Of a stretch of 35,346 nt of DNA, positions 14,518-31,181 are shown in pieces. The notes beneath the pieces were generated by a model, which had not been told where the DNA came from, searched no databases, and saw only the letters and a program-made list of their open reading frames with translations. A program made the translations under genes and the position numbers. This DNA is from Candidatus Wildermuthbacteria bacterium (GTDB taxonomy: Bacteria; Patescibacteriota; Minisyncoccia; Minisyncoccales; UBA10102). The DNA lies in NCBI GenBank assembly GCA_016203455.1, contig JACQMR010000012.1, forward strand, positions 1-35,346. Direction: 5' to 3'. Numbering within the stretch: position 1 is the stretch's first letter; every line of letters begins with the position of its first letter.

Positions 14518-14540
14518 TAAACTTGGCCGGGCCAAGTTTA
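14518..14540. repeat. Palindromic element, copy 1
   Basis: An 11-bp inverted repeat with one central base: arms TAAACTTGGCC and GGCCAAGTTTA around a G. It lies 22 bases before the map start. A close copy lies at 28646-28666 in the opposite orientation, so it may be a dispersed intergenic palindrome of this genome rather than a gene-specific operator. Confidence 0.7.
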
Positions 14541-14562
14541 TTCATAAGTTTACTTTTTTACA

Positions 14563-28645: not shown

Positions 28646-28666
28646 AAACTTGGCCCGACCAAGTTT
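28646..28666. repeat. Palindromic element, copy 2
   Basis: Arms AAACTTGG and CCAAGTTT around CCCGA. Read on the minus strand it matches copy 1 (14518-14540) at all but one base. There it lies 19 bases beyond the stop of the PEGA gene and could help end its transcript. Confidence 0.7.
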
Positions 28667-28684: not shown

Positions 28685-30103
28685 TTAGGGAAGGAGGGAT
28701 TCTGAAAGAGTGAGAGATTCGTTGCTCAAGAGATAAAAAGCAGAAAGAGAGTTTTTCCAGTATAGAATCGGGCTGGGGGATTCCGTTAATTTCGCGACAT
28801 TCGCCGCGCCGCGCGCGTCTGTTTCTACAATCTGTACGGCAGATCCTGCGGAAAAAAGTATGTGCCAGGGCGTAATCCACGCGATGTTCTTGACGAGCGT
28901 GTTTGTTTTAAGAAGGGGAGTTATTTCCCCCGCCTTTCTGGGAGTTTGTCCTTCCTGTTTTTTCAAATAAACCAAGAGGAGCTCATGTTGCGTTGCGGCA
29001 ATGGCTGATGATCCGTCCGGACTGGGTGAAAGAGAACTCGCGCGGAATGTCATGTCAGGGAAAAGGGGAGACCTCGCGCTTACGGTATCTTTCTGCATGA
29101 GCAGTACGGCATCTTGTATGGCATAAAGCGTTTTTTGTTCTTCTTTGAGCAGGGGAATAGACGAGAAGGGCAACGCGCGCCCTTCTTCTGTCTGGGCAAG
29201 ATTTCTTTCCCAGAGTTTTCCTTCTGTGTCTATCCAAATAACGGCATCGCCTTGCATAGTAAACGCCTCAACATTATTCGCGAGGCGGTTTATTTTAAAC
29301 GGCGCCGATAAGTTCTCCAAAGATTCTCGGGGCAGGTATTCGGTTTCAAATAACGATTGGGTTTCTCCCAGGAAAGAGGTGTACAGCAGGGTATCCGCGG
29401 AAAGCGGCGAAAAAGCAACAGCTCCGGTTTCTTTGGGCAGGGCATCTTTCCCGCACGGCGCCGCAAAACACGCGTCTTCTTTTGAGATTCCCCATACCGA
29501 GTACCGCAGGGCTTCCCCCTGACTGGTTTTCGCGAGCATTCTTTTTGAATTGCTCGCCCATGTAATATCCAGCAGATCTTCTTTGGAATTTTGCTGTGAG
29601 AACAAGAATTCTTCGGCGCGGGTTTCCAGATGTACCAGCGTTGCTTTCCATGTTTTGTTCGGTTCTTTCTTTTTGAGCAGGGCGTATTTTTCATCCGGAG
29701 AAAACCATGCCCGCTCTATGTTGTCTGCCACCGCCTGAAAAGAAATTTTGTCTTTAAACAAGATAACTTGCTTTGCTTCCGTAACATTCTTTGCGGTTAC
29801 GGGAAGGATTTTTTTCCACGGCTGGTATCCGTCTTTAAAAATCTCCACGAGATGATTTCCGGGAAATATGTTGCCTATGAATGCCGAGCCGAACAAGAGA
29901 TCGGTTCGTTTTGCCGGTTCTCCGTCAACAAAAATGTCCGCGCGGGGAGGAGCCGTTTTCACAAACAATGCCCCTGTATGGGTAACGCTAAGAGTGTGAA
30001 TATCCATGCGGTATCCCTGCGAATATAAAATAAGAATGGGGACTATGCCGATAAACGCCCCGAAAAGGCAAAAAAACAGCAGGGTGCGCTGGGGTTTTGT
30101 CAT
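28685..30103 (-). CDS. Membrane-anchored PEGA-domain protein
   Basis: A 472-residue minus-strand gene. An N-terminal membrane span (about residues 8-28, LFFCLFGAFIGIVPILILYSQGY region) is followed by a PEGA domain. Its signature is visible in APPRADIFVDGEPAKRTDL and FPGNHLVEIFKDGYQPW. The remaining 350 residues show repeated short hydrophobic strands with SPD motifs (AWFSPDEKYALL, SLSPSPDGSSAIA), which suggests a beta-propeller like TolB or WD40. It is probably an outward-facing surface or wall-associated protein. Start ATG is at 30103, 8 bases after a TATGGT -10 candidate. The family call is good, but the function is unknown. Confidence 0.82.
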   Translation of the reverse strand: MTKPQRTLLFFCLFGAFIGIVPILILYSQGYRMDIHTLSVTHTGALFVKTAPPRADIFVDGEPAKRTDLLFGSAFIGNIFPGNHLVEIFKDGYQPWKKILPVTAKNVTEAKQVILFKDKISFQAVADNIERAWFSPDEKYALLKKKEPNKTWKATLVHLETRAEEFLFSQQNSKEDLLDITWASNSKRMLAKTSQGEALRYSVWGISKEDACFAAPCGKDALPKETGAVAFSPLSADTLLYTSFLGETQSLFETEYLPRESLENLSAPFKINRLANNVEAFTMQGDAVIWIDTEGKLWERNLAQTEEGRALPFSSIPLLKEEQKTLYAIQDAVLLMQKDTVSARSPLFPDMTFRASSLSPSPDGSSAIAATQHELLLVYLKKQEGQTPRKAGEITPLLKTNTLVKNIAWITPWHILFSAGSAVQIVETDARGAANVAKLTESPSPILYWKNSLSAFYLLSNESLTLSESLLP

Positions 30104-30111
30104 GATTCTTT

Positions 30112-30117
30112 ACCATA
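30112..30117 (-). promoter_or_regulatory. Possible -10 of the PEGA gene
   Basis: On the minus strand TATGGT ends 8 bases before the ATG at 30103. A TTGCTG lies 16 bases upstream of it. This again implies a nearly leaderless mRNA. Confidence 0.4.
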
Positions 30118-30166
30118 CCCTAAAACGCAAAATCAGCAAAGAGCGATATGCCCTTATCCTTGTGTT

Positions 30167-30212
30167 ATCCTTAACCCCGTTAAGGTGTGGATAACTTAAC
30201 GGGGTTAAGGAT
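30167..30212. repeat. 18-bp inverted repeat between divergent genes
   Basis: Arms ATCCTTAACCCCGTTAAG (30167-30184) and its exact complement (30195-30212) surround GTGTGGATAA. Each arm holds its own small palindrome, TTAAC-NNN-GTTAA. No T tract follows, so it is not a typical terminator. It lies between the divergent PEGA and TPR-like genes and may be an operator or a cruciform-forming element. Confidence 0.85.
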
Positions 30213-30254
30213 TGCCGATGTACTCATCCCGCACGGTGTTTTAGGCACAAAGAT

Positions 30255-30283
30255 TTGACATTGGGTGCAAAAATGGGTATTGA
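30255..30283 (+). promoter_or_regulatory. Promoter of the TPR-like gene
   Basis: TTGACA (30255-30260), 17 bases, TATTGA (30278-30283). The -35 is perfect. Transcription would start near 30290 and leave a 26-base leader with GGAGGAG before ATG 30316. Confidence 0.55.
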
Positions 30284-30315
30284 GAAGGCGGCACTCAAAT
30301 TTTTTGGAGGAGATT

Positions 30316-31110
30316 ATGCCAGTGGTCGTAACTATTAGGGAGTTGGAAGACTGGTACCGCCAGGGGCGGTATGATGATCTGATTAATCTGAATCCCTCTT
30401 TGGTAGAAATTCCAGTTGATATTTCTGCCGAAGAGGTGCTGGCGCGGGTTAATCTTCTTCAGGCCTGGTCGCTTCATCAGAAAAAAGAGTACTGGCCTGC
30501 GGAGGTTGCTTTCGCCGCGTTGGCTACGCGATTCTTCGTGGATACTTTCGTAGGCGACTCCGCCCGGCGAGGGCTAGCCCATGCCCTCTTTCAGCAAGAC
30601 AAGATGGAAGAAGGGCGACGGGTTTTAGAAGAAATCCGTCCAGGCATTGAAAGGAGCAATGCAAGACTTAACGAGCTTTTGCGGGATGTTTTCGCCGGAC
30701 GGCCCATTCCAGTTGAAGAGGTTTTGCAAGCGGTTGCCCACGCGCTTGGAGATACGCCGTATCGCATAATTCATGGCCATGTTCTGAATAATGCGGCGTG
30801 GATACTGTTCCAAGCACGGCATCGGGAGGAAGCGAAGCCCTACCTGCCTATTCTTCAAGGCCTCATTGAGATGGCCCTCGGGATTTACGACCAAACCAAG
30901 GCCCAGCCCAACCATATCGCATCCTGCAGTTTTAGGGCGGCAACCATCTTTTTTGAGTCAGGATGGTTTAAGGGCGCCCTGACTCTCATTGACGAGTCCA
31001 TTTCTGCCTGGGAGAAGGCACTCCAAGGGAAAGAGGATCCGGCATTCCGCCGGAATCTCCAAGGCGCCGAAGAGTTTCGCCTGAAGATTCTTGCTCAAGA
31101 AACATTTTAG
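30316..31110 (+). CDS. TPR-like helical repeat protein
   Basis: From ATG 30316 the protein has 264 residues. GGAGGAG lies 5 bases before this ATG, a strong Shine-Dalgarno sequence unlike most genes here, and decides the start over an upstream ATG at 30265. The sequence is helical, with tetratricopeptide-like units: NLLQAWSLHQKKEYWPAEVAFAAL, ARRGLAHALFQQDKMEEGRRVLEEI, NNAAWILFQARHREEAKPYLPIL and SFRAATIFFESGWFKGALTLIDESI (described here by their cores WSLHQKKEYWPAE, HALFQQDKMEEGRR, WILFQARHREEA, IFFESGWFKGAL). It is probably a protein-binding scaffold with unknown partner. The flanks hold a large inverted repeat and an elaborate terminator, as for an independent cassette. Confidence 0.75.
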   Translation: MPVVVTIRELEDWYRQGRYDDLINLNPSLVEIPVDISAEEVLARVNLLQAWSLHQKKEYWPAEVAFAALATRFFVDTFVGDSARRGLAHALFQQDKMEEGRRVLEEIRPGIERSNARLNELLRDVFAGRPIPVEEVLQAVAHALGDTPYRIIHGHVLNNAAWILFQARHREEAKPYLPILQGLIEMALGIYDQTKAQPNHIASCSFRAATIFFESGWFKGALTLIDESISAWEKALQGKEDPAFRRNLQGAEEFRLKILAQETF

Positions 31111-31119
31111 CGCAAATTT

Positions 31120-31181
31120 GCGCCCATCGTTATAAAACTTAGTTTAACTAAGTTACCCATAACGATCGGGCGCGTTTTTTT
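31120..31181 (+). terminator. Large multi-part terminator after the TPR-like gene
   Basis: Three nested stems: GCGCCC (31120-31125) with GGGCGC (31168-31173); ATCGTTAT (31126-31133) with ATAACGAT (31159-31166); and AACTTAGTT (31136-31144) with AACTAAGTT (31146-31154). Seven T residues follow (31175-31181). Confidence 0.9.

Follow-up and report, generated by a model that had tools for sequence, protein, structure and literature searches.

The palindrome at positions 30167-30212 of the window, by which we mean the whole stretch of 35,346 nucleotides analyzed here, is likely a copy of a REPIN-like non-autonomous element that belongs to a Patescibacteria family of tiny uncultured bacteria, is mobilized by a RAYT-like enzyme and has a DnaA box as its constant core. 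The plan of the element is hairpin-box-hairpin: the arms turn over and the core mostly stays. Such units recur through the host genome, are linked in relatives to one subgroup of Y1 transposase genes, occur in frame within ORFs and occupy sites that are empty in other genomes. The element was probably spread by a transposase.

Architecture and setting of the palindrome

The two arms, 30167-30184 and 30195-30212, are each 18 nt long and 100% complementary, as the earlier note had described them, and are separated by a loop of 10 nt. The motif TTAAC-NNN-GTTAA that it had pointed out is exact in both, at 30171-30183 and 30196-30208, with a centre-to-centre distance of 25 bp. On the plus strand the region is laid out as ATC CTTAACCCCGTTAAG GTGTGGATAA CTTAACGGGGTTAAG GAT. 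The left arm CTTAACCCCGTTAAG (30170..30184) has a stem of 5-6 bp and CT...AG ends, the right arm CTTAACGGGGTTAAG (30195..30209) is its reverse complement, and each arm is a small hairpin by itself. Between them lies the 10-nt core GTGTGGATAA (30185..30194), whose constancy emerged from the spacer survey described below. On the minus strand the loop reads TTATCCACAC, which opens with a perfect nine-base DnaA box, TTATCCACA (30186-30194, minus strand), a feature on which the earlier note had not remarked.

Chance does not explain the palindrome, since no inverted repeat with arms of at least 18 nt and a loop of 3-30 nt appeared when the window was randomized 200 times by a second-order Markov model; the real window has five, a count that takes in overlapping offsets and any other palindromes. 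Folded as single-stranded DNA, 30167-30212 reached -19.3 kcal/mol (z = -9.1). An Rfam scan of 29900-30500 returned nothing above the gathering score and two matches below it, their E-values no higher than 1.

The palindrome is flanked by divergent ORFs, the setting given for it earlier. To the left, a gene of 472 aa on the minus strand (28685..30103) has a weak PEGA-domain match (18.7 bits, below the cut-off of 20.8). To the right, a plus-strand gene (30316..31110) has weak TPR matches, every one below cut-off; its ORF starts at 30265 (GTG, longest ORF) or at 30316 (ATG).

Solitary arms of other types stand elsewhere in the window, at 28649, 31138 and 14522, two of them directly 3' of genes. 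The plus-strand arm CTTGGCCCGACCAAG at 28649..28663 belongs to another hairpin type, has no core and was counted 10 times in 417 kb of host DNA; arms of this type flank cores elsewhere in the host (C3:6477, C5:19712, C8:8019). The arm CTTAGTTTAACTAAG at 31138..31152 (plus strand, 8 counts in the same 417 kb) also comes without a core and lies 3' of the plus-strand ORF. The arm CTTGGCCGGGCCAAG is followed by TTTATTCATA at 14522..14546 on the plus strand, and this stretch looks like a decayed half-element.

Copies in the host genome

Recurrence in the genome and a conserved spacing in relatives, the two signs for which the earlier note had proposed to look, were both found. The host metagenome-assembled genome (MAG; G000), with 519 kb in 15 contigs and a completeness of 83%, holds 11 full copies, 30167..30212 being one of these, and several halves. 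In the 519 kb, TTAACNNNGTTAA was found at 29 places, against one for the pattern read backwards. The inner 40 bases of the palindrome have eight exact copies in 417 kb of host DNA, and the inner 22 bases, with up to three mismatches, were matched at 13 host places against none for the reversed control. The arm CTTAACCCCGTTAAG was counted 26 times in the same 417 kb, both orientations taken together, compared with zero in the relative G001 and two in G022.

The core emerges also when it is not asked for. A search for CT...AG hairpin pairs 6-16 nt apart, with the spacer left unconstrained, yielded 14 pairs in 402 kb of host DNA and 0-1 in each of five Markov genomes. All 14 host spacers are 10 nt long and differ by at most two mismatches from GTGTGGATAA or its complement. 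Further host copies combine the same core with other arms (CTTGGCCCGACCAAG, CTTAGTCTGCCTAAG and others) or with two unlike arms, and some are chained as hairpin-box-hairpin-box-hairpin. In one copy, at G000:C1:22187-22260, a long perfect palindrome (CTCTTGTTTCAATTCTATGCAATTGCATAG...) replaces the second hairpin directly after the core.

Arm turnover and a constant core in relatives

DNA resembling a 62-nt query occurs in 14 of the 24 other family genomes, 13 of which displayed a box-bearing copy, and in one of 35 others of the order. With the core and short arm ends as the pattern, three of six family members among 383 class genomes gave matches (9, 2 and 12), as did two of the 377 class genomes outside the family, with one match apiece. 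A core-fixed pattern run over 84,980 species genomes returned 27 stretches, and the titles of all 27 name the Parcubacteria group, Candidatus Wildermuthbacteria, the Patescibacteria group or plain 'bacterium'.

In a spacer-blind survey of all DNA examined, a sample biased by the many loci that had been selected via the core, a gap of 10 nt was by far the commonest spacing (89 of 147 arm pairs). On one strand 66 of these 89 spacers read TTAT[CT]CACA and nine have the form TTATCCCCA, the remainder being others. Around them stand 81 distinct arms, a few of the pairs being chance. Arms thus differ from genome to genome and also within the host, and the core is mostly kept. Among 53 elements from three genomes, 32 are whole palindromes, 15 are mosaics of two arm types and six are intermediate. 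When 59 elements were selected without requiring CT...AG ends, 51 of them nevertheless had inner ends of this form at either arm. By a loose criterion, box-centred elements number 28 in G000 (at least two of which are evident false matches), 18 in G001 and 19 in G022.

Other spacings occur as well: a gap of 5 nt in 21 of the 147 pairs (16 with GAATC/GATTC) and one of 6 nt in 16 (GAGCTC-like). Many arms in G022 pair around GANTC or GANNTC spacers instead of the box, which counts against the REPIN-like reading. In that genome (L137-L170) similar hairpins form a second and a third repeat class, with GANNTC (6 nt) or GANTC (5 nt) as the spacer, for example at 190071, 226598 and 488015 and at 355542, 446865 and 605529. 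Outer flanks of the type AATAGTTC / GAGATATGCG often accompany these repeats. At G022 331323-331390 and 580525-580598, and also in G002 (L075), a hairpin unit CCCTTC(A/G)GGGTCTGAA... is fused to CTTAG/CTTAA arms.

Linkage to a subgroup of Y1 transposases

A protein search of 26 genomes identified a tight subgroup of Y1 proteins (at least 70% identity) comprising 10 genes in nine genomes. A hairpin-box-hairpin element lies within about 430 bp of nine of these 10 genes and of none of 20 other Y1 genes (p = 7e-7; 30 loci examined, of about 57 protein matches listed). At seven of the nine genes the arms are near-perfect and at two they are imperfect (L213, L218). The tenth gene (L217) starts at a contig end. 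Two of the 20 other Y1 genes have a box-like 9-mer nearby, without arms. In G014, which has two subgroup genes, elements stand on both sides of each. Read on the coding strand, the flanking elements show TTATCC[A/C]CA or TTATTCACA, TTAT first, at nine of nine genes.

The subgroup also follows the element across the family, being present in nine of 15 genomes with similarity matches and in none of 10 without (p = 0.003, a value that ignores relatedness; 'without' means lacking similarity to the 30167..30212 copy, so that elements with very different arms could escape). The HUH motif (H-[FY]-H) and the tyrosine motif Y-[IV]-N-x-x-NP are kept across 16 aligned Y1 proteins wherever the alignment covers them. 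The G022 subgroup gene contains an in-frame TAG. A search of solved structures with the Y1 protein sequence returned no significant relative (best E = 0.12).

Several results here weigh against the REPIN-like reading. Pfam Y1_Tnp scored above cut-off in seven of 10 genomes tested, relatives and host together, and the host is not among the seven. Profile and protein searches found no Y1 gene in the host MAG at its 83% completeness, and none was found in G005 or G019, both of which have similar DNA. The NCBIfam model of REP-associated tyrosine transposases (NF047646) gave 24.3 bits, below its cut-off of 80. A single-sequence structure prediction for the L112 protein gave no usable fold (pLDDT 36). 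As no Y1 enzyme was found in the host, its copies would depend on a gene within the 17% that the MAG lacks or be leftovers of a lost enzyme.

Signs of movement

Three host ORFs contain a copy in frame, a ksgA-like one of 290 aa and the ORFs C3|63 and C7|38, of 470 and 599 aa; another host ORF contains a half copy. In G001 the ORFs with a copy in frame are C2|29 and ksgA, the latter at a different place in the gene than in the host. From their motifs we take two of the element-bearing ORFs to be uvrC- and argS-like.

Conserved neighbouring gene pairs were compared across three genome pairs (120, 137 and 206). At 15 orthologous gene pairs the element is present in one genome only. In six pairwise cases, representing four distinct sites, it is present in both, with 0.4 expected and with different arms each time. 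That some sites are shared between genera beyond chance counts against the REPIN-like reading; such sites could be old ones that were retained, or just as well hot spots.

The 3' end of ksgA shows such turnover at a single place. Elements of three hairpin types occur there in G001, G024 and G022, with the box inverted in G022; G002 has a degraded element, and there is none in G018, which belongs to the genus of G022. In 19 relatives with a readable ksgA linker stretch the peptide is absent, and the length of the linker varies among them. The occupied and empty sites, at ksgA and between orthologs, demonstrate that sites come and go, some being old or re-used.

The DnaA box and its possible role

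The box TTATCCACA agrees with the DnaA box consensus TT[AT]TNCACA as quoted in the portion of PMC6006769 used here. In another reading the unit serves the host. Dispersed boxes could titrate DnaA or couple genes to the replication cycle, with hairpins that present or insulate the box and with mobility as a secondary trait; we regard this as possible but rather unlikely.

Several observations favour this reading. The host has a dnaA gene, and TTATCCACAGGTTATCCACA precedes the conserved start region of that gene by 76-87 bp; DnaA-type sites spaced by 11 bp lie upstream of dnaA in six of seven loci from relatives and host (L102-L108; up to two mismatches allowed, counted without a chance control). 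In G022 the sites are poor, G024 lacks them, and one of those in G001 has the TTATCCCCA form. They may be an oriC or an autoregulation site in this family. The DnaA domain IV motifs RPRQ and GGKDHTT are kept in eight of eight proteins. In the host genome TTATNCACA occurs 44 times against five for the reversed motif, and over 417 kb of host DNA elements account for 23 of 42 boxes. The six shared orthologous occupancies, in which the arms differ, also fit a box of use to the host. From sequence, the core is best read as a putative DnaA-binding site.

Other observations oppose a host function as the main explanation. Across the 11 full host copies, three changes in 110 core positions compare with one in 330 arm positions (p = 0.05), so nothing suggests that selection has acted on the box since its insertion; this speaks rather for a role of the core in spreading. 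That the core changes after insertion at least as often as the arms is also a point against the REPIN-like reading. The TTATCCCCA form, seen in nine of the 89 gap-10 spacers, agrees poorly with the DnaA box consensus of E. coli. Only 10 of 39 boxes in G001 and 13 of 49 in G022 lie within elements, and box orientation relative to the replication fork is without bias in G022 (10 same, nine opposite).

DnaA-type boxes and hairpins are clustered at two host sites distant from dnaA, one upstream of ksgA (G000:C3:6420-6525) and one in an intergenic stretch (G000:C8:7311-8042).

Transcript ends, operators and cruciforms

It is improbable that the element is mainly a terminator or an mRNA 3' stabilizer. 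In three genomes, 23 of 52 intergenic elements lie at most 12 nt from the stop codon of a gene oriented toward them, where 13.7% would be expected. This excess is partly built in, because the TAA within the arms can itself act as the stop codon, and because genes were called by a simple script. Inspection of the sequence revealed no T tract 3' of either arm of 30167-30212, as the earlier note had said in setting aside a usual terminator, and the GC-rich hairpin followed by a T run that defines a Rho-independent terminator is not found there. For this copy, which stands between divergent ORFs, the terminator reading was therefore rejected despite the stop-codon enrichment elsewhere. A function at transcript ends would also leave the constant core and the in-frame copies unexplained.

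The earlier note had suggested binding by a dimeric regulator, and a pair of identical dyads, 25 bp from each other and lying between divergent ORFs, would suit a two-site operator. This is now very unlikely. The unit is dispersed genome-wide, beside unrelated genes and within ORFs; the arms, which such a regulator would have to recognize, vary freely among relatives and within genomes (81 distinct in 89 pairs), and the constant part is the loop with its DnaA box. The operator reading was rejected on these grounds, and the interpretation in the earlier note, taken as a whole, is partly supported. Equally remote is a cruciform or DNA-uptake signal, to which the very stable single-strand fold and the dispersed copies would lend themselves: many arm pairs in relatives form no single long palindrome (15 of the 53 elements being mosaics), extrusion would leave the constant loop unexplained, and some 20-28 box-centred copies per genome look few for an uptake signal.

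A possible mechanism

The portion of Corneloup 2021 (PMC8266576) used here describes TnpA-REP enzymes that bind single-stranded REP hairpins and cut at the adjacent CT, and a Marinomonas system with perfect 5-bp stems that tolerates a swap of the whole stem. By analogy with REP/RAYT, the REPIN-like element, two hairpins of about 15 nt with CT...AG ends around a constant 10-nt core with the DnaA box, would be recognized on single-stranded DNA by the subgroup Y1/HUH transposase encoded in trans. The enzyme would cut at the CT ends and then copy or exchange the hairpins. Recognition by hairpin shape, cutting at CT and an exchange of the arms that flank the fixed core are suggested by the 5-bp stems, the CT...AG ends and the freely varying stem sequences. 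The core itself may be read by the transposase, by DnaA or by both.

A more speculative extension, which we offer tentatively, is that the family has adopted the host initiator. DnaA bound to each core might tie the transposase to opened or replicating DNA, or insertions might titrate DnaA, turning a selfish element into a dispersed initiation dial in a reduced genome. Arm exchange by strand transfer at the CT ends would explain both the mosaics and the sites that keep their core while their arms turn over. A literature search, with the subscription literature largely outside it, found neither a published account of a DnaA-box-centred mobile palindrome nor a description of REP/RAYT in Patescibacteria. 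If our reading is right, an element with the putative initiator-binding site as its fixed part would make it possible to test directly, in very small genomes, if mobile elements take advantage of replication initiation or change it.

Comparison with known systems

Dispersed high-affinity DnaA boxes outside oriC recall datA of E. coli, a DnaA-titrating cluster. Unlike the mobile, hairpin-flanked repeat described here, datA is a single cluster.

Insertion of a palindrome in frame in protein genes is shared with the Rickettsia palindromic elements, which differ in being about 150 bp long, with no DnaA box mentioned in the portion of PMC10969869 used here. A link between the Y1 family and DnaA is known from TnpA-Y1 subclass 2.1, or TIRYT, as far as the portions of Quentin 2018 (PMC6006769) and Di Nocera 2013 (PMC3733652) used here go. 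Proteins of subclass 2.1.2 have a Bac_DnaA_C-like domain. There the DnaA-like part is on the protein and the repeats, GGGG[AT][CG]A[CG], are unlike a DnaA box (PMC6006769), whereas in the present element the box is on the DNA. A search of the Quentin 2018 text for Parcubacteria, CPR and Patescibacteria returned none of these terms.

The closest likeness is to REP/REPIN and RAYT, as presented in the portions of Bertels and Rainey 2011 (PMC3116915) and Corneloup 2021 (PMC8266576) used here. Common to both are short hairpins in inverted pairs, dispersed in many copies; a single Y1/HUH transposase gene with such repeats beside it (the REPtron, here in relatives); and a transposase that is missing from some genomes. 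The small, perfect 5-bp REP stems have their counterpart in the Marinomonas Mb system, and the CT at the hairpin ends is where known TnpA-REP enzymes cut (PMC8266576). REP and REPIN sequences differ in carrying GTAG or GTGG at the hairpin foot. The new element lacks this foot; its core is not a canonical REP guide, with GTGG placed 4 nt from the hairpin rather than GT[AG]G at the foot, and even this GTGG is not strictly kept (GGGG and GTGA variants in the spacer-blind survey). Other Y1 subclasses without the tetranucleotide appear in the portion of Quentin 2018 used here (PMC6006769). The element works like a REPIN and is a candidate member of REP/RAYT, one that lacks the GTAG foot. REPINs also reach hundreds of copies, compared with about 20 here, where arm types are mixed around one core, and they consist of conserved REPs around a spacer (PMC3116915), in contrast to a fixed 10-nt DnaA-box spacer between variable arms. 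If our reading is right, it would add a REP/RAYT-like system to the Patescibacteria and invert the usual REPIN logic, with the spacer fixed and the hairpins variable.
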